Positions 8,204-35,162 of a stretch of DNA of 53,541 nt are shown here, in pieces; the stretch's first letter is position 1, and the number at the start of each line of letters is the position of its first letter. Under the pieces are notes generated by a model. The model saw only the letters and a list, made by a program, of their open reading frames with translations, was not told the origin of the DNA and did no database searches. The stretch lies in NCBI GenBank assembly GCA_003567475.1, contig PWZL01000068.1, positions 1-53,541 on the forward strand, in the 5' to 3' direction. Source of the DNA: Gammaproteobacteria bacterium (lineage in GTDB: Bacteria > Pseudomonadota > Gammaproteobacteria > Steroidobacterales > PWYM01). A program made the position numbers and the translations under genes.

Positions 8204-9127
8204 GTGGCAGCCACCGTTCTGAAGCGTCTCCGGGATCTCGCCATCCTGCTGTTCGGCCTGACACTGGTGCTGTTTTTCATGCTCCGTCTGGCGGGCGATC
8301 CCGCAATTGTCATGGCCGGGCCCGATGCCACGCTGGAACAGGTGGAGGCCCTGCGGGCCCAGTATGGCCTGGATTTGCCGGTGTGGCAGCAGTTCCTCGT
8401 GTATCTGCGTAACGTGCTGCTGCTCGACTTCGGGCAGTCGCTGGCCAGCGGTGTCCCTGCCATGGAGAAGGTCATGACCATGCTGCCGGCCACGCTGCTG
8501 CTGACCTTCCTGGCGATGGGGTTCACTCTGGTGGTGTCGATTCCGTTGGGCGCCTGGCTGGGCTATCGACCCGATGCGCCCTCACGCAGGATGACGGGCT
8601 GGCTGGTATTCATCGGCCAGGGGGTGCCGGGGTTTGTCGTCGGTCTGGTGGCCATCCAGGTCTTCGCGGTGAATCTCGGCTGGTTGCCCTCGCTTGGGTA
8701 TGGCAGCGTCCAGCACTGGATTCTGCCGACCATCTCGCTGGGGGCGTTCCTGATTCCCAAGCTGACCCGCGTCCTCGCCGCCAACGTCGCCGAGGCCATG
8801 CGCGAGGATTACATCCGGACCGCCCGCGCGAACGGCGCCCGCTCCAGGGAGCTGCTCACCCGCTACGCCCTGCCCAACGCCTTGTTGGGGGCCACGGCGC
8901 TGGTCGGCACGCAGTTCGCCTTCCTGATCAGCGGCACCGTCGTGATCGAGATCATTTTCTCCTGGCCCGGCATCGGCTGGTTGTTGATCGAGTCGACCCA
9001 GACGCTGGATTTCCCGGTCGTACAGGCGATTGCCATCGTGGTTGCCGTGCTGGTGTTTGGGATCAACCTGCTCACCGATCTGGCTTTCCGGTTCCTTGAC
9101 CCACGGGTCGGGCAGGGGAGCACCTGA
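8204..9127 (+). CDS. ABC transporter permease, DppB/OppB type
   Basis: A 307-residue inner-membrane permease of the dipeptide/oligopeptide/nickel importer family. There is an N-terminal membrane segment (LAILLFGLTLVLFFMLRLAG), a periplasmic domain with the typical QYGLDLPVWQQFLVYL stretch, then five membrane segments. The EAA loop that docks onto the ATPase is EAMREDYIRTARANGAR. The GTG start follows the aldehyde dehydrogenase stop by three bases, so translation is probably coupled. It is paired with the next gene, but neither an ATPase nor a binding protein is adjacent; the only ATPase pair in the window is at 20108-22140. Confidence 0.93.
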   Translation: MAATVLKRLRDLAILLFGLTLVLFFMLRLAGDPAIVMAGPDATLEQVEALRAQYGLDLPVWQQFLVYLRNVLLLDFGQSLASGVPAMEKVMTMLPATLLLTFLAMGFTLVVSIPLGAWLGYRPDAPSRRMTGWLVFIGQGVPGFVVGLVAIQVFAVNLGWLPSLGYGSVQHWILPTISLGAFLIPKLTRVLAANVAEAMREDYIRTARANGARSRELLTRYALPNALLGATALVGTQFAFLISGTVVIEIIFSWPGIGWLLIESTQTLDFPVVQAIAIVVAVLVFGINLLTDLAFRFLDPRVGQGST

Positions 9128-9129
9128 GG

Positions 9130-9996
9130 ATGGTCGTCAGTGTCGAAAAACGCCTGCAACGCAGCAGGATTCGCCTGGGCGGCACTCTGGAACTCTGGCT
9201 TGGCGGTGTGCTTGGACTGAGCCTGCTTCTGCTCACCGTGTTTTCCGGGCTCGTGCAGTCGCACGATCCCATGTATGGCGACCTGATGGTCCGCTTTGCC
9301 TCGCCGGGGACGCCCGGTCACTGGCTGGGGACCGACAATCTGGGCCGGGACATGTGGTCGCGCGTGGTGGCGGGGCTGGCCTGGTCACTGTCCTGCGCGC
9401 TGGTGGCGACGCTGATCGCCGCGGTGATCGGCACGGTGCTGGGCCTGCTGGCCGCCGAGAATCACGGCAGGTTGCGTGGTGCGATCCGCCAGGCCGTCGA
9501 TCTCGTGCTGGCATTTCCCGGTCTGGTCGCCGCGATCTGCGTCATCGCGGTGGTCGGCCAGGGGTTCTGGCCGCTGGTGCTGACCCTCGGCCTGCTGACC
9601 TGGCCGGTGTTCGCGCGGGTGGTGTATGCCGAGGCCCTGTCGTTGCTCGAACGCGATTACGTGCTGGCAGCCCGGCTGGTCGGCGTGAGCCGCACGCGGA
9701 TCCTCTTGGGACATGTGCTGCCCGGCCTGCGGGCGACGCTGCTGGTCATGCTCGCCTTCCACTTCGCCGACATGCTGATTGCGGAAAGTGCGCTGTCCTT
9801 CCTCGGGATCGGGGCGCCGCTCGGCGATCCAACCTGGGGCAACATGCTGGCGGAGAGCCGGCAGTTCCTGTTTCGCGCGCCGTGGATGCTGTTCGTCCCG
9901 GCCGGGGCGATCATCCTGGCAGTCGTCACGGCCAATCTGCTGGGTGACGGTATCGCGGTGGCAGCCCGCAAGCGTGGCCGGGGTATCGATGTCTAG
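9130..9996 (+). CDS. ABC transporter permease, DppC/OppC type
   Basis: A 288-residue partner permease to the preceding gene, with the DppC-type N-terminal periplasmic motif HWLGTDNLGRDMWSRV, five further membrane helices and the EAA loop EALSLLERDYVLAARLVG. ALSFLGIG is the usual family signature near residue 220. ATG 9130 follows the previous stop by two bases, with GAGG immediately upstream. The gene is the last of the aldehyde dehydrogenase operon and faces the convergent TonB receptor across a terminator. Together with its partner it forms a second permease pair in the region; it may borrow the OppD/OppF ATPases encoded about 10 kb away (inference). Confidence 0.93.
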   Translation: MVVSVEKRLQRSRIRLGGTLELWLGGVLGLSLLLLTVFSGLVQSHDPMYGDLMVRFASPGTPGHWLGTDNLGRDMWSRVVAGLAWSLSCALVATLIAAVIGTVLGLLAAENHGRLRGAIRQAVDLVLAFPGLVAAICVIAVVGQGFWPLVLTLGLLTWPVFARVVYAEALSLLERDYVLAARLVGVSRTRILLGHVLPGLRATLLVMLAFHFADMLIAESALSFLGIGAPLGDPTWGNMLAESRQFLFRAPWMLFVPAGAIILAVVTANLLGDGIAVAARKRGRGIDV

Positions 9997-16476: not shown

Positions 16477-18090
16477 CTAGCGCTCGATATGCAGGTAGCG
16501 AGTGAGGTTGGCGGCGCGGGGGTTGTCCACCCAACCCTGCACGACTGGGCTGACCAGACGCTGACCCGAATAGAAAAACACCGGAATCAACGCATGATCT
16601 TCCATCGCCACCCGTTCGGCCTGCTGCATCAGTTCCCGTCGTTCCTCGAGATCCGGGCTGGCTGACGCGGCGGCCATCAGGGTATCGAACTGCTCATTGG
16701 CGTAGCGGGCGAAATTGGTGCTGCGGTTGGTCGAATCCAAGGTGCCCAGGAAGGTGGAGGCGTCGTTGAAGGCCGCGAACCACGCATACAGGGCGCTTTC
16801 ATAGTTGCCGGAGCGGGCATCCGCGATCACCGCGCCGAAATCCGAATTGACCATTTCCATGTCCGCCCCGACCGCTCGCCACATGGCGCGCACGGCGATC
16901 ACGATGTTGTTGTTGGTATCCTGGCTGTCATAGCGCATCGCCACGCGCAGGGGACTGCGCTGTGAAAACCCCGCCTCCTGCATCAGCGCGCGGGCTTCAG
17001 TCATCCGCGCCTGCATGCTCATCGACTGGAATGAGGCCTGCTGCGGGGTGTAGTTTTCGATGGTGGGGGGTACCAGCGAATAGGCGGGTTCGACCTGACC
17101 ATCGAGCAGGCGGGAGACGATGCCCTCGCGATCGATGGCCAGCGACAACGCCCGTCGTACGCGGGGATCATCGAAGGGCGGACGGGAGATGTTGAGCAGA
17201 ATGAAGCCGGTACCAAGCCCGGGGGACGAGCGCAGATGCCCCGGGAGATTTCGCTCGATCCAGCGGGTCTGATCGGCGGGGTAGCGCAGCGTGAGGTCGA
17301 GTTCACCGGCCCGATAGCGCTGCAGGCTGGCGGAGTCGTTCTCCAGCGGGTAGTAGAAGACCCGCTCGATCCGCACGCTCTCGGTCGCGTAGTGGTATGG
17401 ATTCCGCTCGGCCAGAAGATAGGTCTGTGGCACGGCCTCGATCAGCCGGTAGGCGCCGCTCCCGACAAAGTTCGCCGGACGGGTCCACTGCTGCCCGTGC
17501 GCCTCGATGGCATGCGCCGGGACGGCGACCGCGGCAACGGCGGCCATGAGATCGGGCAGGAAGGGTGCCGGGTTGTTCAGGCGGATCTCCAGGTGGCGCT
17601 CATCGAGTGCGCTGACCCCAAGGGTCTCGATCTCAGCCTGCCCGGTGTTCACCGCACGCCCGTTCTCGATCAGGTAAAGAAACGAGGCATAGCGGGCCGC
17701 GGTGCGCGGATCCATCAGCCGGCGAAACGAATAGACGAAATCTTCTGCCGTCTTGGGCTTGCCGTCTGACCACCGCAGATTCTCACGCAGACGGAAGACG
17801 TAGGTCCGGCCGTCTTCGCTGACCTCGTAGGCCTCGGCGGCACCGTAGGTCAACTGACCTTCACGGTCGACGGTCATTAAACCCTCGAAGAGATCGTAGA
17901 TCAGGATCGAAGCGGAGGTGCCGATCGCACGATGTGGATCCAGGGTGCGAGGTTCGTTACCCAGTCCGCGATGAAACACGCTGTTGTCAGCGTTCGCCGG
18001 CGCCAGCGGGATGAGCCACCCCAGCAGCGCAAACACCGCTGCGCCCGCGCAGACCCCTCTGACTTGTTTTGAAGCAGTTGAACCAGCCAC
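16477..18090 (-). CDS. ABC transporter substrate-binding protein, family 5 (OppA/DppA type)
   Basis: A 537-residue periplasmic binding protein. A Sec signal peptide (hydrophobic core AAVFALLGWLIPLAPANA) is followed by the family start NEPRTLDPHRAIGTSA and SYSFRRLMDP-like segments; the C-terminal lobe includes YDSQDTNNN and ends YLHIER. The GTG at 18090 is chosen because AGGAGGGG lies immediately upstream; an ATG 18 codons earlier lacks a signal. It would capture a peptide or similar bulky solute and hand it to the permeases at 22140-23975. It is the last gene of an eight-gene minus-strand run that starts with the MFS carrier, with all gaps of 26 bases or less. Confidence 0.93.
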   Translation of the reverse strand: MAGSTASKQVRGVCAGAAVFALLGWLIPLAPANADNSVFHRGLGNEPRTLDPHRAIGTSASILIYDLFEGLMTVDREGQLTYGAAEAYEVSEDGRTYVFRLRENLRWSDGKPKTAEDFVYSFRRLMDPRTAARYASFLYLIENGRAVNTGQAEIETLGVSALDERHLEIRLNNPAPFLPDLMAAVAAVAVPAHAIEAHGQQWTRPANFVGSGAYRLIEAVPQTYLLAERNPYHYATESVRIERVFYYPLENDSASLQRYRAGELDLTLRYPADQTRWIERNLPGHLRSSPGLGTGFILLNISRPPFDDPRVRRALSLAIDREGIVSRLLDGQVEPAYSLVPPTIENYTPQQASFQSMSMQARMTEARALMQEAGFSQRSPLRVAMRYDSQDTNNNIVIAVRAMWRAVGADMEMVNSDFGAVIADARSGNYESALYAWFAAFNDASTFLGTLDSTNRSTNFARYANEQFDTLMAAASASPDLEERRELMQQAERVAMEDHALIPVFFYSGQRLVSPVVQGWVDNPRAANLTRYLHIER

Positions 18091-18110
18091 AGTGCCCCTC
18101 CTCGCTGTGT

Positions 18111-19016
18111 TCAGGTACGTGCCGGATATTCGACCAGGCCGCAAAGCGAATACTTCCTGGAGATATCATGACTCCGGATGACCTTGCCATCCTCGAGCCG
18201 CCTGTCTTCGACCACACCGGCAAAGAAATTGTTCAGGAAAAAATGCCGACCGTCATGGGCCAGCGTGACCCGTGACCAGCCAGGTGCCGCCGGGACGTCG
18301 TAGTCCAGGACACGCTGACCGGAGGAATCGAAGCGGCAGCAGCCCTTTCCCGTGGCCATTAGCAGGCCGTCGTCCGCCAGGGTGGCGATACCGCAGGTGC
18401 CCCGCGGGTCGTCTACATCCAGGCGGAGGAGGTCGTCGAGCTGCCGGTCGGCAGCGGTGTCGTAGCGCATCACGCGGCGCCCACCCTCGGAGACATAGCG
18501 CAGCGTGCGCCCGTCCTGCTCGAAGGCCATATGCGTGACGCAGTGGAAGCCGCGCATGCCGCCGTCGATCTCGACCTCCAGGGCACGAACCGTCTGGCGT
18601 GCCGGCTCGACGTGGAACAGCCAGTGCGCGCCCCACTGGTCGTCAGGCGGGTCGCCAAGGCGAGAATGCACCCCGAGAAACAGGCCACCGTGGCCGTCGG
18701 GGAGAATGGCGCCAAAGCGTCGGCGGGGGAGCCAGGCCTGCGCCATCGGGCCTTGGCCACCAGGGTCGAAGGCGACGATTGAATAGGCCTGGGCGTCGGC
18801 GGCGTAGAGCACGCCGCTGTCCGGCTCGACCGCAACGCCTATCACGAGGCCATCCGTGCCCGTGGCGAGCGTTGTCCGAGTGCCGAAATCGGCATCCAGA
18901 TGCAACAGTCGCCCAGGCCCGGCATGGTTTCGCAGATCGACATTGCTGTCATCGACATCGCTGCTGGCGACGATGATGTCACCGGCTTCGAACGCGACGG
19001 GGGAGGGGTGCGTCAT
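18111..19016 (-). CDS. Beta-propeller (SMP-30/NHL-like) protein of unknown function
   Basis: A 301-residue protein without a signal peptide. Blade-like repeats of the type VAVEPDSGVLYAADA, MAFEQDGRTLRYVSE and VTLAHDGRHFFLNN suggest a six-bladed propeller related to SMP-30/gluconolactonase or NHL proteins, which often hydrolyse lactones or bind ligands. The metal ligands of true gluconolactonases cannot be assigned with confidence. Its neighbours are the nitrilase-like gene (13 bases upstream) and the binding-protein gene (20 bases downstream), so it belongs to the transport operon. A role in opening a ring product after oxidation, or in sensing, would be guesswork. Confidence 0.7.
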   Translation of the reverse strand: MTHPSPVAFEAGDIIVASSDVDDSNVDLRNHAGPGRLLHLDADFGTRTTLATGTDGLVIGVAVEPDSGVLYAADAQAYSIVAFDPGGQGPMAQAWLPRRRFGAILPDGHGGLFLGVHSRLGDPPDDQWGAHWLFHVEPARQTVRALEVEIDGGMRGFHCVTHMAFEQDGRTLRYVSEGGRRVMRYDTAADRQLDDLLRLDVDDPRGTCGIATLADDGLLMATGKGCCRFDSSGQRVLDYDVPAAPGWSRVTLAHDGRHFFLNNFFAGVVEDRRLEDGKVIRSHDISRKYSLCGLVEYPART

Positions 19017-19029
19017 GTGAGTGCCCCGC

Positions 19030-20106
19030 TCAGTACCAGTAATTCATCCAGCGGGCCGCGTGCTTGAGCATGCGTGCACCCTCGACTTTATCCTGTGGCA
19101 AGGCGTCGAGATAGGCGCTGTGATCGTAGCGTTCGCGGTACTGATTGAAGATATGCCGATAGATGGAGATGTGCAGATCCGGGATCCGGTGTTTCTTGCG
19201 GTACGCCTCCATGTTGATGGCAGCACGGCGCTTGGTCTCGAATACCCCGGCTTCGGTCAGCACTTCACCGCGCGGGCCGAAAATGGCCGACCGGCCAATC
19301 CAGTTGTTGCGTGGGGCATTCTCTTCAAAGAAATGCGGATTGCTGCTGCCGGTGCTGACCGAGTTGTTCACCAGTGTCGTGTACACGTCGTTGTGGTAGG
19401 AGGTCAGGCGCATGTCTTCCCATTCGCACCCGCCGGTGGCCACTCGGCAGATGATCTCGGCACCCTTCATGGCCATGCAGCGGAACAGTTCCTGTTCGAA
19501 CTGCACGGACGACATTGCGATATTACCGATGTCGGTGCGGGCGACAGGGATCACCCGATCCCATCCATACATTTCGACATAGCGATCCAGGACATCGTAG
19601 ATGGTGGTCGTGATGTTCTCGCTGCCCGGGAACATGCCGCGTACATTGCGCTGCTTCCAGTGCACGTCGACAACCCGGCCTTCCGGGCCGACCAGGACCT
19701 GCCAGTTCATCACGTGATCCTTCCAGTCAGGATCCCTGGCAAGACAGCCGAAGGCGATGTAGCAGTTGTATGCCTTGGCCTTCGCTGCGATCGCTTCGAC
19801 TTCCGGACCGGGAACGTCGATCGCGACGCGCAGATATTCCGCCCGTTTCCAGTCGGGCTGGTAGCCCTGTAGCGGGAATTCGTGAAAACACAGCAGATCC
19901 GAGCGCCCGCCGTAGCCCTGTGCCTTGTCAATGCACGACAGGGTGTAGTCGAGGTTCTCCCTGATTCCCGCTGCCGGATTCGCACCGTCCACGCCGCGTA
20001 CCCGCGTCTGGACGACGGCAATGGCGGTCACCGGTTTTCTCAGCGGAACCGTTGGATAGCTCCCGTCCTCCCGGACCAACTGCGGAATTTCGTCCCTGTC
20101 ACTCAT
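19030..20106 (-). CDS. Nitrilase/amidase-superfamily protein with altered catalytic triad
   Basis: A 358-residue member of the carbon-nitrogen hydrolase superfamily, closest in outline to aliphatic amidases. The catalytic Glu is present at Glu76 (CFHEFPLQGY) and the Lys at Lys151 (VDVHWKQRN). When aligned on the conserved AMKGAE segment, the position of the nucleophilic cysteine is Ser199 (NIAMSSVQFEQ), so the usual Glu-Lys-Cys triad is Glu-Lys-Ser. It may be a pseudoenzyme, a serine variant or a binding protein. The gene ends 13 bases before the propeller gene and its ATG lies one base after the OppF stop, so it is part of the transport operon. No signal peptide: cytoplasmic. Confidence 0.85.
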   Translation of the reverse strand: MSDRDEIPQLVREDGSYPTVPLRKPVTAIAVVQTRVRGVDGANPAAGIRENLDYTLSCIDKAQGYGGRSDLLCFHEFPLQGYQPDWKRAEYLRVAIDVPGPEVEAIAAKAKAYNCYIAFGCLARDPDWKDHVMNWQVLVGPEGRVVDVHWKQRNVRGMFPGSENITTTIYDVLDRYVEMYGWDRVIPVARTDIGNIAMSSVQFEQELFRCMAMKGAEIICRVATGGCEWEDMRLTSYHNDVYTTLVNNSVSTGSSNPHFFEENAPRNNWIGRSAIFGPRGEVLTEAGVFETKRRAAINMEAYRKKHRIPDLHISIYRHIFNQYRERYDHSAYLDALPQDKVEGARMLKHAARWMNYWY

Positions 20107-20107
20107 G

Positions 20108-21127
20108 TCACTCCCCCGTGGGTTTCTCGGTGTGGGTGTCGCGCGTGATGTCCTGCCAGTAGTGGCAGGCGACCTGGTGCGCCTCGGAGCCGGTGGACTC
20201 CAGCGCAGGCGTCGCCTTGAGACACAGTGGCGTCGCGTGGGGGCAGCGCGTACGGAATACGCAGCCCGATGGTGGATTGAGAGGCGAGGGCAGATCGCCC
20301 TCGATCAGTTTCTGTTCGCGCTGTCTGGCCTGGCGCGGGTCGGGGATCGGCACGGCCGACAGCAGGCTCTGGGTATACGGGTGCCGCGGCGTGTCGAAGA
20401 TCTCACGCTTCGGACCGATCTCCATCAGCTTCCCGAGGTAGAGCACCATGATGCGGTGGCAGAGATGCCGTACCACCGAGAGATCATGGCTGATGAAGAT
20501 GTAGGACACCTCGTACTCAGCCTGCAACTCGCGCAGCAGCGCAATGATCTGGGCCTGGATAGAGACATCCAGTGCGCTGACCGGCTCGTCACAGACCACC
20601 AGACGCGGTCTCGAGATCATGGCGCGGGCGATGCTGATTCGCTGGCACTGACCACCGCTGAACTCATTCGGATAACGGTTCATCATTTCGGGCCGCAGCC
20701 CGACCCGGCGCATCATCGAGGCGGCGCGGTCTTCCGCTTCGCTGCGAGCGATACCAGGCTCGAACGAATACAACGGCTCCCGAAGAATCGCCCCGACACT
20801 CATTCGCGGGTTCAGACTTGCGAGCGGGTCCTGGAACACGAGTTGCAGCTCGCTTCGCTTGACGTTCATGGCGTCTGCGTCGAGACGGCAGAGATCCTCC
20901 CCCTGCCAGATCACCCGCCCCGCGGTCGGCGGGATCAGCTGGAGCACGGCGCGCCCGAGTGAAGACTTGCCACAACCCGACTCACCGACCACTCCGAGGG
21001 TCTCGGCCGGCCCCAGACTGAAGCTGACGTCGTCGACTGCCTTGAGCATGCGTGGTCCGGAGAACAGCCCGCCCCCAACGGGAAAGTGGACGCGCAGGTT
21101 CTCGACCTGCAGCAGGCGGCGCGTCAT
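20108..21127 (-). CDS. Oligopeptide ABC transporter ATP-binding protein, OppF/DppF type
   Basis: A 339-residue ATPase subunit. Walker A is VGESGCGKSS, the signature is EFSGGQCQR, and Walker B is LVVCDEPVSALD. The C-terminal oligopeptide-transporter domain contains the Cys-rich GCVFRTRCPHATPLC that binds an iron-sulfur cluster in some relatives. The ATG at 21127 overlaps the OppD stop (ATGA) and has GAGGAG upstream; the frame is open further but that extension lies inside oppD. It powers uptake with the partner ATPase and the permeases encoded upstream. Confidence 0.96.
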   Translation of the reverse strand: MTRRLLQVENLRVHFPVGGGLFSGPRMLKAVDDVSFSLGPAETLGVVGESGCGKSSLGRAVLQLIPPTAGRVIWQGEDLCRLDADAMNVKRSELQLVFQDPLASLNPRMSVGAILREPLYSFEPGIARSEAEDRAASMMRRVGLRPEMMNRYPNEFSGGQCQRISIARAMISRPRLVVCDEPVSALDVSIQAQIIALLRELQAEYEVSYIFISHDLSVVRHLCHRIMVLYLGKLMEIGPKREIFDTPRHPYTQSLLSAVPIPDPRQARQREQKLIEGDLPSPLNPPSGCVFRTRCPHATPLCLKATPALESTGSEAHQVACHYWQDITRDTHTEKPTGE

Positions 21128-22140
21128 GGCAGCTCCTCTAGGTGACAGGCCTTGAGGTGCCCGGGTTGCGCAGTCTCCAGTATCGGGCGCTCGAGTTCGC
21201 ACCGCCCGAACGCATAGGGGCAGCGTGGCGCGAAGGCGCACCCGGGGGGGAGCGCCTCGAGATCAGGGGGTTGGCCCGGAATGGCGGTCAGTTCCTCGCT
21301 GTCGCGGTCGGCCCGCGGCATGCACGCCAGCAGCCCGCGGGTATAGGGATGGCGGGGAGCATAGAACAGCTCATCGACGGGGGCATGTTCGACGACCCGA
21401 CCGCCGTACATGACCATTACCTCGTCGCAGAGCCCGGCGACCACGCCCAGATCATGCGTGATCATCACCAGCGCCGTGTTGGTATGGTCGGCCAGCCCCT
21501 TGAACAGTTTCAGGATCTGCGCCTGGACGGTGACGTCGAGTGCCGTGGTCGGTTCGTCGGCAATCAACACATCGGGCTGGCAGAGCAGCGCCTGCGCGAC
21601 CATGACGCGCTGGCGCATGCCGCCGGAAAACTCATGCGGATACATGCGATAGCGTTTCTCCGCCTCGGGGATACGGACCAGTTCGAGCATCTCCAGGACC
21701 TTGGCACGCGCCGCGCCGCGGCCCAGGCCGCGATGCTGCGTCAACACTTCGGAGAGCTGTTCGCCGATACGCTTGTGCGGCGTCAGTCCGGTGATCGAGT
21801 CCTGGAAGACGATGGCGAGCTTCTCGCCACGAATCGCGTCCAGGCGGCGCCTGGATACGTTGAGAATCTCTTCGCCGTGCAGTTTGACCGAACCGCTGGC
21901 GTGGCCGTTGCTCGCCAGCAGGCCGAGGATCGCCAGGAAGGTCTGGCTCTTGCCCGAACCGGATTCACCGACGATGCCCAGACATTCGCCCCTTTGGAGG
22001 TCGAAAGAGATGCCGTTGACTGCGCTGATCCGGCCATTGGGCGTGTCGAAGTGCACGGTGAGATCACGGCACTCCATGACGGTCCGCTGGTCGCTGGCGC
22101 TGGCCGGGCGTCGCCCGGGCCGTGCGTGGGTGGCTGCCAT
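21124..22140 (-). CDS. Oligopeptide ABC transporter ATP-binding protein, OppD/DppD type
   Basis: A 338-residue ATPase subunit with Walker A VGESGSGKSQ, signature EFSGGMRQR, Walker B VLIADEPTTALD, the His loop MITHDLGVV and the C-terminal GCAFAPRCPYAFGRC motif. The start MAATHARPG at 22140 shares a base with the stop of the permease gene (TGATG), showing tight coupling; an in-frame ATG 34 codons earlier would lie within that permease gene. This and OppF are the only peptide-type ATPases in the window, although there are two permease pairs. Confidence 0.95.
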   Translation of the reverse strand: MAATHARPGRRPASASDQRTVMECRDLTVHFDTPNGRISAVNGISFDLQRGECLGIVGESGSGKSQTFLAILGLLASNGHASGSVKLHGEEILNVSRRRLDAIRGEKLAIVFQDSITGLTPHKRIGEQLSEVLTQHRGLGRGAARAKVLEMLELVRIPEAEKRYRMYPHEFSGGMRQRVMVAQALLCQPDVLIADEPTTALDVTVQAQILKLFKGLADHTNTALVMITHDLGVVAGLCDEVMVMYGGRVVEHAPVDELFYAPRHPYTRGLLACMPRADRDSEELTAIPGQPPDLEALPPGCAFAPRCPYAFGRCELERPILETAQPGHLKACHLEELP

Positions 22141-23051
22141 CAGCGGCCCTCCGGGTCGAGGGCGTCGCGTAGACCGTCGCCGATGAAGTTGAAACAGAAC
22201 AGGGTGATCGCGAGGAACGTGCCGGGAATCAACAACAGCCACGGGCCGGTGTCGATATTGGCCGCGCCCTGGGAAATCAGCGTGCCCCAGCTGGTCATGG
22301 GCTCCTGCACGCCAAGGCCGAGGAAACTAAGGTAGCTCTCGACCAGGATGGTGGTCGGGATCAGCAGGGTGACGAACACGATCACCGGGCCTACGATGTT
22401 CGGCACCACATGGCGCCGGACGATGACGAGGTTCGACAGGCCGATCGCGCGCGCCGCTTCCACGTATTCCTTCTGTTTCACCGAGAGTGTCTGACCGCGA
22501 ACGATGCGCGACATCGTCAGCCATTCGACCGCGCCGATACCGATGAACACCAGATAGATGTTTCGACCGAACACCGTGACCAGGATGATGATGAAAAACA
22601 GCAGGGGCAGCGCGTAGAGCACATCGACGATACGCATCATGAAGTTATCGATCTTGCCGCCGAAAAACCCCGCCACGGAGCCCCAGGTGACCCCGATCAC
22701 CAAAGCCACGGCTGTGGTCATCACACCGATGGTCAGCGACACGCGGGCGCCATAGAACGTCCGCACGAACATGTCGCGACCGTTGGAGTCGGTGCCGAAC
22801 CAGTGGCCGTTTTCCAGCGTTGGCGGTACCAGGATGTACTCCCAGTAGAAGTCTTCCATGGTATGCGGGCTCAGCAGCGGCGCGAAAACCGCCATCACGC
22901 TGATGAGCAACAACACGATGACGCTGCCTACCGCCACCTTGTTGGACAGAAACCGACGCGTTGCGTCCTGCCATAGCGAACGGCCCACGGTTCGGCCAGC
23001 GGCCTGCATGGCGGCAAGTTGTCGATCGCGGCGTTGTGTCAGAAAGCCCAT
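22140..23051 (-). CDS. Oligopeptide ABC transporter permease, OppC/DppC type
   Basis: A 303-residue inner-membrane permease with an N-terminal cytoplasmic tail, a first membrane helix (VIVLLLISVMAVFAPLL), the periplasmic motif HWFGTDSNGRDMFVRTFYG, and five further helices. The EAA loop is VKQKEYVEAARAIGLSN, and SYLSFLGLG is the family signature. The ATG follows directly after the TAA of the OppB gene. It forms the channel with OppB. Confidence 0.95.
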   Translation of the reverse strand: MGFLTQRRDRQLAAMQAAGRTVGRSLWQDATRRFLSNKVAVGSVIVLLLISVMAVFAPLLSPHTMEDFYWEYILVPPTLENGHWFGTDSNGRDMFVRTFYGARVSLTIGVMTTAVALVIGVTWGSVAGFFGGKIDNFMMRIVDVLYALPLLFFIIILVTVFGRNIYLVFIGIGAVEWLTMSRIVRGQTLSVKQKEYVEAARAIGLSNLVIVRRHVVPNIVGPVIVFVTLLIPTTILVESYLSFLGLGVQEPMTSWGTLISQGAANIDTGPWLLLIPGTFLAITLFCFNFIGDGLRDALDPEGR

Positions 23052-23975
23052 TTATTCACGCCTCACGCGGGGGTCGAGATAGCCGTAGATGACGTCGGCC
23101 AGTAGATTCAGGAGGATGATTGCGGTGGCATAGACAATGACGGTACCCATGACCAGCGGGTAGTCGCGGTTCAGCGCCCCCTGGATGAAGTACCGGCCCA
23201 TGCCGGGCAGTCCGAAGATCTGCTCGATGATGACAGAGCCGGTCATGATGCCGGCGATGGCCGGGCCGAGATAACTCACCAGTGGCAGCGAAACCGCCTT
23301 TAAGGCATGCCCGGCAACCACCTTGTACTCCGGCAGTCCCTTGGCGCGCGCCGTGCGGATGTAATTCTGACGCATGACCTCCAGCATCGACCCTCGCGTC
23401 AGGCGCGAGAGAATGGCGATCTGCGGCAGAGCCAGCGCAATGACTGGCAGCACCATGTTCTGCAGGGCACCATCGTTCCAGCCGGAAATCGGCAGCAGTT
23501 TCAGGTAGAGCCCAAAGACCAGCGTCAGCACGGGTGCGACGACGAAGGCCGGCACGGCGAACCCGGTCATGGCGATGGACATGGTGACGTAATCGATCCA
23601 CCGGTTGCGGTTCAACGCCGAGATGATTCCCATCAGACAGCCGAACAGCAGCGCCACGACAATCGCGGTGAGACCGAGCTTTACGCTCACCGGCAGGCCG
23701 ATCGCCAGCAGTTCCGTGACGGTGTAGTCGGCGTAGGTGATGGAGGGGCCGAAGTCGCCACGCAGCAGACGCGCCATGTAGAGCATGAACTGCTCGGTGA
23801 CCGGCTTGTCGAGGTCATACGCCGCTCGGAGGTTCTCGATGACCTCAGGTTCGAGCTGGGCATCGGCATCGAACGGTCCACCGGGCGCGGCCCGCATGAG
23901 GAAAAACGACCCGGCAATCACCACCAGCAGGGTGGGGAGTGCCACGGCGAGTCTTCGCGAGACGAAACTGAACAA
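23052..23975 (-). CDS. Oligopeptide ABC transporter permease, OppB/DppB type
   Basis: A 307-residue permease starting with an N-terminal helix (LPTLLVVIAGSFFLMRAAPGGPF) typical of OppB, then AAYDLDKPVTEQFMLYMARL and five helices. The EAA loop is EVMRQNYIRTARAKGLPE. The start codon is TTG with a run of seven G about seven bases upstream acting as the ribosome site. It lies 26 bases after the MFS gene and begins the transporter block of the operon. Confidence 0.94.
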   Translation of the reverse strand: MFSFVSRRLAVALPTLLVVIAGSFFLMRAAPGGPFDADAQLEPEVIENLRAAYDLDKPVTEQFMLYMARLLRGDFGPSITYADYTVTELLAIGLPVSVKLGLTAIVVALLFGCLMGIISALNRNRWIDYVTMSIAMTGFAVPAFVVAPVLTLVFGLYLKLLPISGWNDGALQNMVLPVIALALPQIAILSRLTRGSMLEVMRQNYIRTARAKGLPEYKVVAGHALKAVSLPLVSYLGPAIAGIMTGSVIIEQIFGLPGMGRYFIQGALNRDYPLVMGTVIVYATAIILLNLLADVIYGYLDPRVRRE

Positions 23976-24001: not shown

Positions 24002-25315
24002 CTAGTGTCGGCCGGACCGTTGGCCGGCCATGGGCGCGGCATGCGTGTTGGCATCGCACGAGGATGCCGCGTCTGTTACGGAATTCTGTTCCGTCCGTCG
24101 TCGCTCGTCGCGCAGACGCCGGCCGATCATCAAGGCGATCACGAAGGCCGGGATCATCGCCAGTGCGCCGATTGCGAAGGGCGCGTTCGGACCGACCTGA
24201 CCATACAGCGTGCCAGACATTGTCTGGCCGCAGAACCGCCCGAGACTCGAGGTGGACTGGTAGACGCCCATCACCGCCCCTCGTTCCTGGGGCCCGGCGC
24301 GACGCGACAGCAGGCTCTGCAGACTGGTGGCGAACAGCGCCGTGCCGACGCCGCTGGCCGCCATGGCGATGAACAACCCGACCATACCCTGCGCCAGGAT
24401 CAGCCCTATCCAGCTCAGCGTGTACATCAGCATACCGGTCATCAGCAGGGCATGTTCTCCGAAACGCGTCGTCAGTGGTCCCATGCCGAAAAACTGGATC
24501 AGCGTAATGATGATGCCGTTGAACGAGAAGAACAGTCCGATGGTCGCTGCGTTATAGCCGAACTGGTGGTTGGCCCACAGGGAAAAAATCGATTCGCGCA
24601 CCGCGGCGAAGGTGATCACGATCAGGCAGAGCATGATCATCAGTGCAATGGTGCGTCGGCGCAGGATCAGCCCTACACCCTCGCGCAGGCCAGGGCCAGA
24701 GACATTCGGCGCGCCCGCGCCGCCGCTTCGCACGGGATGGTGACTCTCCGGCAGGAACAGCAGGATACCGATCAGCGCGACGGCTGACAGGCCAGCCGCG
24801 GCCAGCGCGGGGCGCATGAAGTTCGCGTCGGCGATCTCGCCGGTGCCTGCAAGCAGGCCACCCAGCGCCGGGCCCATCACGAAACCCAGCCCGAACGCTG
24901 CGGAAATCTTGCCGAGATGTCGCGCGCGATCCTGTGGGGGCGTGATGTCGGTGATGTAGGCGTACGACGCCGCCAGATTGCCGGCGGTCAGGCCACCGAG
25001 GACCCGCGAGAGGATCAGCATGGCGAGCGTGTCGGCAAACGCCAGCATCACATAGGCGCCGATGTGCCCCGCCATGCACAGCAGCAGCACCGGACGCCGA
25101 CCGATCCGGTCGCTCACGTGTCCCCAGAAGGGCGTGACCACGAACTGCACCAGCGAGTAGAGCGCCAGGATTGCGGTGATCAGTTCGGGGCCGACGCCCA
25201 TCCGCTCCACGTAAAACGGCACCAGCGGGATCATGATGCCGAAGCCCAGCAGGTCGATGAACACCACCAGGAACAGGATCGTAACGGCTTTTCTGGGCGT
25301 GACGGCTGGCTTCAC
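24002..25315 (-). CDS. MFS transporter, TetA-like DHA1 family
   Basis: A 12-helix major facilitator of about 437 residues. The first helix (VTILFLVVFIDLLGFGIMIPLVPFYV) and the loop GHVSDRIGRRPVLLL match the TetA/DHA1 antiporter group, and GGLTAGNLAASYAYITDI is typical of helix 4-5. It would export a drug-like compound or pathway product, or act in uptake. An ATG at 25342 gives nine extra residues, but a candidate operator and -10 region end one base before it and it has no ribosome site; I prefer the GTG at 25315, which has AAGGA ten bases upstream. It is the first gene of the eight-gene minus-strand operon. Confidence 0.88.
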   Translation of the reverse strand: MKPAVTPRKAVTILFLVVFIDLLGFGIMIPLVPFYVERMGVGPELITAILALYSLVQFVVTPFWGHVSDRIGRRPVLLLCMAGHIGAYVMLAFADTLAMLILSRVLGGLTAGNLAASYAYITDITPPQDRARHLGKISAAFGLGFVMGPALGGLLAGTGEIADANFMRPALAAAGLSAVALIGILLFLPESHHPVRSGGAGAPNVSGPGLREGVGLILRRRTIALMIMLCLIVITFAAVRESIFSLWANHQFGYNAATIGLFFSFNGIIITLIQFFGMGPLTTRFGEHALLMTGMLMYTLSWIGLILAQGMVGLFIAMAASGVGTALFATSLQSLLSRRAGPQERGAVMGVYQSTSSLGRFCGQTMSGTLYGQVGPNAPFAIGALAMIPAFVIALMIGRRLRDERRRTEQNSVTDAASSCDANTHAAPMAGQRSGRH

Positions 25316-25342
25316 GGGACAGGCATCCTTGTCAGTGAGCAT

Positions 25343-30543: not shown

Positions 30544-31044
30544 TCAGTCCTTGGGTTCCAGTGACCGCCAGTCGCTGGTGATTTTCTCTTCCTGGATCAG
30601 CGTTCGCCGGATCAGGCCCTCGCCCTCACGGATCCACTGCCAGACACGGCTGCGGAACCGACCGCAGTCGGTGACGTTAATCATCTCGTAGAAGTAGACG
30701 CCGGGCAGCTCTGGCCGCTCCCAGTACAGGAAAGTCGAGCGGCGCTTGGGGTCGTCGGAGAGCTCGCGGACCAGCCCCTTGATGCGCGGCGAGTCGAAGA
30801 CGACCTCCCGGGAGCCGTTGACGTAACCGCACGGCATGTCATGCACCTCGGTGCGGCCGTCGTCCCAGGTGTAGTAGTTGGTCTGGTGGTACGGGCGGGC
30901 CTCTTCGGGTTTGAAGCGAATGAACAGCCGTGAGCGGTGCTGATCGATGATGTTGCAGTCGGCATCAAGATGCCGATAGACACCGTCCCACACGCCTTCA
31001 CGTGAGGCCAGAAGGGGCATATCCTGTTTGATGGTGGAACTCAT
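30544..31044 (-). CDS. DUF3598-like (calycin-type) conserved protein, paralogue 1
   Basis: A 166-residue soluble protein without a signal peptide. It begins with an alpha-helix and EGVWDGVYRHLDADCN, continues with YHQTNYYTWDDGRTEVHDMP, YEMINVTDCGRFRSRVWQW and a C-terminal RRTLIQEEK, a set of alternating strands compatible with a calycin/lipocalin-like barrel. A clear paralogue is at 47490-47966 (same block order: EGVWDG, YHQTN, YTW, DGRT, CGR-RSR-WQW, TLI-EEK). Function is not known; such barrels often bind small hydrophobic ligands. The start at 31044 has GGAG eight bases upstream. It is divergent from the methyltransferase, and a well-conserved operator lies between them. Confidence 0.75.
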   Translation of the reverse strand: MSSTIKQDMPLLASREGVWDGVYRHLDADCNIIDQHRSRLFIRFKPEEARPYHQTNYYTWDDGRTEVHDMPCGYVNGSREVVFDSPRIKGLVRELSDDPKRRSTFLYWERPELPGVYFYEMINVTDCGRFRSRVWQWIREGEGLIRRTLIQEEKITSDWRSLEPKD

Positions 31045-31120
31045 TCGAAGGTCTCCTTGGGCTCCGCCGGCGTCGTCGCCGGCCGCTCCGGGTGCCGCGC
31101 GAGACGGTGGCCCCCGTATT

Positions 31121-31142
31121 GTTGTCATGTTATTATAACAAC
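31121..31142. promoter_or_regulatory. 22-bp inverted repeat, candidate operator
   Basis: Left half GTTGTCAT is identical to that of the 12493 site; right half ATAACAAC differs from ATGACAAC at one position; the N6 spacing is the same. It sits in the 122-base gap between the divergent DUF3598-like and methyltransferase genes, 24 bases before the methyltransferase ATG, so occupancy could block both. Confidence 0.65.
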
Positions 31143-31166
31143 CGTAGTCAGGCAAGAGGCGTCACC

Positions 31167-33171: not shown

Positions 33172-33233
33172 GGCATCTCTCCCGGTGACAGGGCATGCGG
33201 ATTGGCCCGCGAGGCACTGGTCCGCTCGGCGTT

Positions 33234-33255
33234 TAACCCATATCATTATATCAAC
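33234..33255 (-). promoter_or_regulatory. Extended -10 promoter of the GntR gene overlapped by a degenerate operator
   Basis: On the minus strand TGATATAAT (33253-33245) is a perfect extended -10 and would start the GntR mRNA near 33238. The same bases form the right half ATATCAAC, matching ATGACAAC in 6 of 8; the left half TAACCCAT keeps only CAT. The block ends one base before the ATG of the divergent binding-protein gene. Confidence 0.5.
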
Positions 33256-34800
33256 ATGATGATTAGTGCTGTATTTCGGTTTTTTCCCGGCCCTTGGATG
33301 GCCGGGGTCACTGCGCTGGCAGTGCTGCTGGGGACGGTCACGGCCAGCGCTGCCGGTGCGGCTGAGCTGCGCTTCGCCATGGCCAACCTGCCTCGCAGCC
33401 AGGGGAATCCGTACACGGAAAACGGTTCGCCCTCCACCTACACCTGGTCGGCGATCTTCGATGCGCTCACCCGGGTGGGCGCAGACGGCACCTTGCAACC
33501 TGCCCTGGCGACACGCTGGTCACCACTGGCCGACAACCGCTGGCGCTTCGAATTGCGCGAGGGGGTGCGCTTCACCAACGGCGAGCCCTTCGACGCGCAC
33601 ACGGTAGTCGCCGTCGTCGACTGGCTGCGCAGCGAGGAGGGCAGACGTACCGTGATCGGTAACGAGCTCCGTTCACTCGCCGAGGCAGTGGCCATCGATG
33701 AGCACACCGTCGAGCTTGTCAGCACACGACCCGACGCCATCCTGCCCAACCGCATGTCCGCGGTGCTGATGGTGCCGCGGGAGGCCTGGGCGCGACTCGG
33801 CCCGGACGGCTTCGCGCTCCAGCCTCACGGGACCGGTCCGTTCCGTGTTGTCGAGTGGAGTGAGCGCGAGCGTACGGTGCGGTTGGTGGCGAATCCGGAA
33901 TCCTGGCGTGCCCCGCGACTTACGGCGCTGACGTTGCGCGGGTTGCCCGACAAGGCGGTGCGCGTGCAGGCCCTGCGGTCCCGGGAAGTCGACATGACGC
34001 TGATCGATATCGAGGACGTCGATTTCCTGCAGGCCCGCGGTTTCAGCGTGAACCACAGTCCCTCGATGCAGGTCATGGCGCTGGCCTTCAACGCGGAGCG
34101 CGATCCCCCTTCGCCGGTGGCCGATGTGCGCGTGCGCCAGGCGCTCAACCACGCCGTCGACAAGCAGGCCATCGCCGATATCCTGCTACAGGGGATGGTG
34201 CGGCCTTCCGGGCAACCCGCATCGTTCGTGACCACGGGCTACCACCCTCACATCGAGCCCTATGCCTACGATCCGGCACGCGCGCGAGCCCTGCTCGCCG
34301 AGGCGGGCTGGCCCGACGGTTTCGACATGACGATCCACGTCGCCGAGGGTGGTGTACCCGGTGCGTCGCAGATCTACCAGGTTGTGGTGCAGTATCTGAG
34401 CAGGATCGGTGTGAGGGCGCGGCTGCAGGTGCGCCCTTTCCCGGCCTGGCTGCGTGATTATCTCGCGGGCACCATGTCGGCGGACATGTTCGGGCTGCCT
34501 TGGAACTCGGCCCCGTATAACGACGTGATGCGACCGATCGAGTACTATTCCTGCGCCAAGCGCCGGCCGTTTTTCTGCGCGCCGGAGCTCATGCCGCTGA
34601 TCGAGGCTGCGGGGAGTGAGCTCGATCCGAAACGCCGCGAGGCGGTGCTTCAGGCGCTCGCCCTGCGCACGCACGAGCTCGCGCCGTCACTGTTTCTGGT
34701 CGAACAGATGGATTTGTTCGCCCATCGGGTGGACGTGGAAGACCTCGTTGTGGCGAATCGTGTCCCCGTCTACGAGCGCCTGTATATCTCCCCCCCCTGA
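33256..34800 (+). CDS. ABC transporter substrate-binding protein, family 5 (second copy)
   Basis: A periplasmic binding protein of about 514 residues with a Sec signal peptide (FRFFPGPWMAGVTALAVLLG to TASAAGA) and the family features YTWSAIFDALTRVGADGTLQPALA, WRFELREGVRFTNGEPFDA and VRQALNHAVDKQAI. Start is uncertain: ATG 33256 and 33259 have no ribosome site and abut the operator-like block, while ATG 33298 would shorten the signal peptide and remove its only basic residue. It differs clearly from the binding protein at 16477, so the region holds two solute receptors. No permease is adjacent; the orphan permease pair at 8204-9996 may be its partner (inference). Confidence 0.88.
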   Translation: MMISAVFRFFPGPWMAGVTALAVLLGTVTASAAGAAELRFAMANLPRSQGNPYTENGSPSTYTWSAIFDALTRVGADGTLQPALATRWSPLADNRWRFELREGVRFTNGEPFDAHTVVAVVDWLRSEEGRRTVIGNELRSLAEAVAIDEHTVELVSTRPDAILPNRMSAVLMVPREAWARLGPDGFALQPHGTGPFRVVEWSERERTVRLVANPESWRAPRLTALTLRGLPDKAVRVQALRSREVDMTLIDIEDVDFLQARGFSVNHSPSMQVMALAFNAERDPPSPVADVRVRQALNHAVDKQAIADILLQGMVRPSGQPASFVTTGYHPHIEPYAYDPARARALLAEAGWPDGFDMTIHVAEGGVPGASQIYQVVVQYLSRIGVRARLQVRPFPAWLRDYLAGTMSADMFGLPWNSAPYNDVMRPIEYYSCAKRRPFFCAPELMPLIEAAGSELDPKRREAVLQALALRTHELAPSLFLVEQMDLFAHRVDVEDLVVANRVPVYERLYISPP

Positions 34801-34838
34801 CTCAGGCGGGTATTGACGTATCCTCGATGGAGTTTCCC

Positions 34839-35162
34839 ATGGACAAGCTCGAAGCCGTACGCCGTTCCATTGCCGAGAGTGCCGGACCCCGACCGGCCTT
34901 TTTCAAGGACCCCGATGTGGATCGTGTCCTGGCCATCACGATGGCCGTGTCGGGAGAAGTGGCCGTGATGGCCGAGCGCCTGGATACCCTCGAACGTGTG
35001 CTGGAGGAAAAGCAGCTGCTTGGCCGCGAGGAGCTTACCGGATATCAGCCTGACCCGGACGTCGTCGCCGAACGCATGCGCTGGCACGAGGCGTTCGTCA
35101 GCCGTGTGCTGCGGGTCGTCGAGCAGGAACTCGAAGTGCTGAAAAAGCAGCGCGACACCTGA
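34839..35162 (+). CDS. Small helical protein of unknown function
   Basis: A 107-residue acidic, soluble protein with strong coiled-coil character (AVMAERLDTLERVLEEKQLL and VVEQELEVLKKQRDT). I do not recognise the family. ATG 34839 is preferred over 34827 because GGAG lies six bases upstream. It starts 38 bases after the binding-protein stop and is probably co-transcribed with it. It ends just before a terminator that belongs to the convergent TonB receptor. The segment ITMAVSGEVAVMAERLDTL recalls small proteins found beside catabolic dehydrogenases, but this is only an impression. Confidence 0.65.
   Translation: MDKLEAVRRSIAESAGPRPAFFKDPDVDRVLAITMAVSGEVAVMAERLDTLERVLEEKQLLGREELTGYQPDPDVVAERMRWHEAFVSRVLRVVEQELEVLKKQRDT

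Follow-up and report, generated by a model that had tools for sequence, protein, structure and literature searches.

Enzymes of the nitrilase superfamily are described, in the excerpted text of one account, with a Glu-Lys-Cys triad (PMC6971011). According to the excerpted text of a study on N-carbamoylputrescine amidohydrolase, an engineered Cys158Ser variant (5h8k, 5h8l) has a Glu-Lys-Ser pocket in which ligand is still bound, while its reactivity is strongly diminished (PMC4812014). Here, we analysed a stretch of 53,541 nucleotides (the window), lying within contig 76 of its 3.06 Mb source assembly, in which an ORF at 19030..20106 on the minus strand encodes a nitrilase-fold protein of 358 aa that lacks the Cys and in which no signal peptide was seen. 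The Glu-Lys-Ser set is what it has in common with the Cys158Ser variant; in contrast to the window protein, the latter is an engineered point mutant with a full-length turn and belongs to a different family. Among solved structures, AmiE (2uxy/2plq) and AmiF (2e2k/5g3o) were the best sequence matches of the profile made from the clade of the window protein (E 6.6e-20), with the Glu and Lys blocks in common. Unlike these enzymes, the window protein has no Cys in the nucleophile turn, its turn is two residues shorter, and it misses the NCBIfam equivalog cut-offs for aliphatic amidase (22.5 vs 427 bits) and formamidase (31.4 vs 406 bits). A keyword search of the open-access literature at title and abstract level, with most subscription journals outside its scope, yielded no account of such a Cys-less clade.

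The sole Pfam match of the 19030-20106 product was PF00795 (carbon-nitrogen hydrolase), spanning residues 30-299 with E 1.4e-17 and 64.4 bits against a gathering score of 23.2; the product gave no match to PF00496 (family-5 solute-binding protein), which falls on the neighbouring ORF 16477-18144. Two AlphaFold models computed from six rows each reached pLDDT values of 47.9 and 49.6, too poor to place residue 199, and in the first model the pLDDT of the nucleophile region was about 27-36. Foldseek with this first, poor model returned matches in the nitrilase superfamily, i.e. the superfamily of AmiE and AmiF, with a TM-score of ~0.3 over the whole length and a good fit over 126 columns only. 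From its sequence we assign the window protein to the nitrilase fold family. Comparison of the window gene with two orthologs revealed strong purifying selection (dN 0.015 / dS 1.00 and dN 0.044 / dS 1.21), and Glu, Lys and Ser are all kept in 35/35 rows of the closest branch; together these exclude chance, and the Cys-less ORF is a real gene.

The gene is part of a tight minus-strand run of eight genes that includes a complete Opp-type ABC transporter, and Pfam assignments and gene order thus bear out the original prediction of a transport operon. The operon is headed by an MFS transporter (24002..25342, PF07690), followed by an OppB-like permease (23052..23975) and an OppC-like permease (22140..23051), which cluster with the PF00528 proteins of the window at 8204-9127 and 9130-9996, respectively, an OppD-like ABC ATPase (21124..22077, within ORF 21124-22242) and an OppF-like ABC ATPase (20108..21127, with PF00005 and oligo_HPY on ORF 20108-21241). 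The nitrilase relative starts one base past the OppF-like ATPase gene, and downstream lie genes for an SMP-30/gluconolactonase-like protein (18111..19016, PF08450) and a family-5 (OppA-like) solute-binding protein (16477..18036, with PF00496 on ORF 16477-18144). The gene starts of the two ATPases and the solute-binding protein were taken from a composition-scored gene call. A second Opp-type permease pair (8204-9996) and a second family-5 solute-binding protein (33202-34800) are encoded on the plus strand of the window.

In HMMER alignments, formamidase and aliphatic amidase match the window protein over the Glu block and onwards to the Lys block, and HMMER, MAFFT and hhalign all paired Glu76 (codon 19879..19881, minus strand) and Lys151 (19654..19656, minus strand) with the catalytic Glu and Lys. 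The two residues are thus the counterparts of the catalytic pair, as originally claimed, and the numbering given for them and for Ser199, Ser200 and Cys210 is correct. At the nucleophile turn, the window protein reads GNIAMSSVQFEQELFR, compared with, e.g., GNIGTLICAEGSYPEAAR in Cys-bearing relatives, and its turn, with Ser199-Ser200-Val201, contains no Cys. The segment from Thr191 to the Pro-Glu of the next helix has two residues fewer in the window protein and its clade than in Cys-bearing relatives, so that Ser199 (19510..19512, minus strand) falls in the Cys column only when the gap is set before it. Counting back from AMKGAE in the following helix places Ser199 at the Cys, while counting forward from the preceding Gly-Asn places Val201 there (19504..19506, minus strand), as does MAFFT. 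In the hhalign comparison (probability 99.9) with the SEE clade, a separate Cys-less clade described below, the gap itself lies over the SEE Ser-Glu, i.e. the nucleophile column. In a BLOSUM scan of gap placements, Val201 had a mean score of 22.8 and Ser199 one of 20.9 when compared with Cys rows; with SEE rows the scores were 31.2 and 29.0, respectively. In the search of the PDB with the HMMER clade profile, the aliphatic amidase matches shown left profile positions 151-203 out of the alignment, hence this search is silent on Ser199 versus Val201. Sequence similarity therefore slightly favours Val201 or a gap at the Cys column. Of the original placement of Ser199 at the nucleophile, the loss of Cys and the AMKGAE anchoring stand, whereas the exact equivalence of Ser199 and Cys is unproven owing to the two-residue deletion and to structure predictions of which neither is usable.

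Cys210 (19477..19479, minus strand), named in the original prediction as a possible alternative nucleophile, was rejected for this role: it lies in the next helix and is Cys in 33/35 of the closest rows, but in 4/18 and 0/8 rows of other branches. It aligns with the helix Cys of aliphatic amidase rows (RDCAMKGAE), which we take not to be the nucleophile of that enzyme. Glu163, a candidate for the additional conserved Glu that separates the catalytic Lys from the Cys in sequence, is present in 68/88 full-length rows, its alignment with Cys-bearing rows being unsafe.

To place the protein among its relatives, 217 profile matches were reduced to 171 aligned relatives, with rows dropped if they were identical to or contained in another or had <180 residues, and trees were built from 90 representatives with <72% identity and >=240 residues, the 90-row tree omitting the nucleophile columns. 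In this tree, the 37 representatives carrying the two-residue deletion form one side of one branch (SH-aLRT 99), and this deletion clade is apart from the SEE clade (17 rows, SH-aLRT 100) and from the Cys-bearing rows (25, six changes). Of its 89 rows, 85 retain Glu76 and 86 retain Lys151, while at position 199 there are 66 rows with Ser, 18 with Thr, 2 with His and 1 each with Gly, Leu and a gap; a clade with a conserved residue at this place, which the original prediction had proposed to look for, was thus found, with Ser or Thr (84/89 rows) beside Glu and Lys. When rows of <=240 residues, among them fragment L046, are left out, the counts for the 88 full-length rows are 84 for Glu76, 85 for Lys151, and 66 Ser and 18 Thr at position 199. 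Position 200 varies among A/S/T/P/G/I, with 13 changes in the 37-row tree versus 7 at position 199. Position 201 is Val in 67 of the 89 rows, Thr in 15, Cys in 2 and other residues in the rest, the two Cys rows (L094 and L139) sharing one common motif. Four full-length rows have no hydroxyl at position 199. Three of them (L003, L217 and L158) have also lost Glu and Lys, L003 and L217 retaining Val201 despite these losses, and L102 has Gly199 with Glu and Lys kept; in addition, L101 has lost Glu with Ser199 in place. The co-loss of Glu/Lys and the hydroxyl amounts to two or three independent events, too few for a test.

PF00795 matched 32/32 clade rows of A2 (E<=0.001). In a sample of 396 genomes from the window's order, which holds more, 101 had a match to the window protein at E<=1e-20 among the matches listed. 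In a phylum sample, 3/398 genomes matched at E<=1e-15, namely the window's own genome, one genome of the same class with a deletion-clade protein (L043) and one with an SEE-clade protein (L044). Named near relatives come from metagenome-assembled Gammaproteobacteria (97% and 92% identity), a Steroidobacteraceae assembly (71%) and Thermaurantiacus tibetensis (65%). The viral contigs searched contained no relative, and 15 plasmid records had distant matches, all at <60% identity, and ten of these records were retrieved for the analysis.

Export signals were sought with home-made patterns rather than SignalP. A twin-arginine pattern with a hydrophobic stretch after it was found in 28/88 deletion-clade rows, divided into 0/36 in the window's branch, 26/36 among rows of 38-55% identity and 2/16 in the remainder, and elsewhere in 0/43 Cys, 2/24 SEE, 0/7 Ala, 0/6 Gly and 1/2 other rows. 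In a second, hydropathy-based count restricted to rows with at least 25 residues upstream, signal-like N-termini were present in 25/37 B/C rows, all 25 twin-Arg/Lys-Arg-like, and in 13/14 D rows, 8 of them with a lipobox-like motif; six more B/C rows below the hydropathy threshold have a twin-Arg signal by eye. For the window's branch the same count gave 2/27, in both cases ahead of the presumed ATG, and for the others 3/15 for SEE, 1/2 for Ala, 0/3 for Gly, 1/1 for other and 0/24 for Cys rows. Most clade branches outside the window's own thus carry predicted Tat, Sec or lipoprotein signals, which their Cys-bearing relatives lack. By Fitch parsimony, the base of the clade would be exported, on a weakly supported rooting.

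Gene neighbourhoods were compared across 40 loci and the window, counting genes up to 6 positions from the deletion-clade gene and taking the Pfam label of each neighbour cluster from one member. TonB-receptor-like proteins were found in 10 genomes, Opp-type ATPases, flavin amine-oxidase-like proteins and aldo/keto reductases in 7 genomes each (the last on the same strand every time), putative Rieske-like proteins, labelled from motifs, in 6, MFS proteins (cluster c17, labelled by eye from sequence) in 5 and a methyltransferase in 4. DUF1838 occurs at six loci (L094, L100, L105, L106, L110, L074) in five genomes, adjoining the deletion-clade gene in L094 and L106. Two small proteins of the window (30544-31155, minus strand; 34827-35162, plus strand) have no Pfam match, and their relatives (clusters c20 and c21) recur at other deletion-clade loci. 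The neighbour sets fit catabolic gene clusters without naming a substrate, and orthologs beside transporters, aldo/keto reductases and other catabolic enzymes are as expected for a metabolic enzyme.

Our leading reading, held tentatively, is that the pocket works through Glu, Lys and a Ser/Thr hydroxyl on a substrate delivered by Opp-type import. The window protein would be a cytosolic member of a distinct Cys-less clade with a nitrilase fold, in which the nucleophile turn lost two residues and was remodelled around a conserved hydroxyl (that of Ser199, or of Thr in some sister branches). Glu76 would activate the hydroxyl of residue 199, Lys151 would stabilise the tetrahedral intermediate, and the hydroxyl would attack a carbonyl (ester, amide or similar) in a small molecule that the operon's own Opp-type transporter takes up. 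We infer the orientation of residue 199 into the pocket, its role as nucleophile, and the identity of the substrate with the imported solute. A working pocket is favoured by how little Glu and Lys vary, by the hydroxyl at 199, by purifying selection and by the operon, and the Ser/Thr-hydroxyl mechanism by the retention of the hydroxyl at 199 while position 200 drifts and by three of the four hydroxyl-less full-length rows also having no Glu and Lys, although two of these (L003 and L217) still have Val201. It is weakened by the slight preference for Val201 or a gap at the Cys column, by L102 and L101, which run counter to co-loss, and by the poor reactivity of the engineered Cys158Ser enzyme, as given in the excerpted text (PMC4812014).

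The same Cys-to-Ser exchange, with binding retained and reactivity strongly reduced in that excerpt (PMC4812014), speaks for a credible reading that we rank next, in which the protein is a non-catalytic binding protein whose Glu76, Lys151 and Ser199 bind a ligand with an amide or carboxylate group in order to store it, sense it or pass it to the next enzyme, without cleavage. The clade-wide shortening of the nucleophile turn, where the enzyme is under most constraint, and the lineages of L003/L217 and of L158 without Glu, Lys and hydroxyl point the same way, and the Tat, Sec or lipoprotein signals of sister branches would suit such a role. However, binding alone need not demand the near-invariance of Glu76 and Lys151 in the full-length rows, the window protein has neither a signal peptide nor a DNA-binding part, and the operon already encodes its own solute-binding protein. 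Still lower we rank the rather improbable case that the nucleophile was deleted altogether and that Glu76 as base and Lys151 as acid carry out non-covalent chemistry on water or substrate (hydration, isomerisation, elimination), with Ser199 structural. The hhalign placement of the two missing residues against the SEE Ser-Glu, i.e. the nucleophile column, fits this case, as does the greater constancy of Glu and Lys than of residue 199, but position 199 is Ser or Thr in 84/88 rows, the two interchanging, which suggests that the hydroxyl matters. That the protein is an ordinary nitrilase with its Cys at another site, e.g. Cys210 or Cys115, is very improbable: although Cys115 is kept in 35/35 of the closest rows and in 17/18 B/C rows, all 8 rows of the D branch have Thr, Ser or Ala instead, and it is far from the turn in sequence, and Cys210 sits in a helix and is unconserved.

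An extension of the Ser/Thr-hydroxyl mechanism to the history of the clade is more doubtful than the mechanism itself: the hydroxyl may have replaced Cys in the shortened turn at a Tat-exported ancestor, the clade may then have radiated into periplasmic and lipoprotein forms, and the window's branch may have returned to the cytosol to act on an Opp-imported solute. A large natural Cys-less clade that retains Glu and Lys and is conserved and mostly exported would show either that the fold works via a Ser/Thr hydroxyl or that it became a binding-protein family, and names such as 'nitrilase-related carbon-nitrogen hydrolase' would then mislead. Moreover, the native Ser, Thr, Gly and His variants are ready material for probing the need for Cys.

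The window's genome contains seven PF00795 genes, of which four have no usual triad, namely those for the window protein, for L116 with Thr, for L117 with His and neither Glu nor Lys, and for L114 of the SEE clade with Ser and an Arg replacing Lys. The paralogs L002/L116 (G000:C70) and L003/L117 (G000:C15) carry twin-arginine signal sequences, and the frame of L003 is open notwithstanding His199 and the loss of Glu and Lys. The order includes genomes rich in nitrilase-related genes of all branches, an unusual expansion of 10 to 17 genes each in G377, G250, G067, G161 and G087 (17, 13, 13, 12 and 10, the five highest counts among ten genomes searched with profile A2). The SEE clade, e.g. L114 of the window's genome (G000:C57) and L125 of Nonomuraea, resembles the window's clade in being Cys-less, in keeping Glu, in its PHDxxDxYxExxG region and in its length of about 350 aa. 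In contrast to the window's clade, it has Ser in the Cys column without a gap (ASEEILYPE, 24/24 rows), its catalytic Lys is replaced by Arg (24/24), with Glu in 24/24, and it forms a separate clade (SH-aLRT 100). The SEE clade is a cleaner natural Cys-to-Ser case than the window's clade. Two further Cys-less branches keep Glu and Lys, namely a Gly branch (TVGVEGAFPE; L057, L060, L062, L165, L167) and an Ala branch (L118, L121, L122, L127) that occurs on plasmids of haloarchaea, Tsukamurella and Flammeovirga. The plasmid relatives with Cys replaced by Ala (Haladaptatus, Flammeovirga, Tsukamurella) are annotated as 'nitrilase-related carbon-nitrogen hydrolase' or are unannotated.
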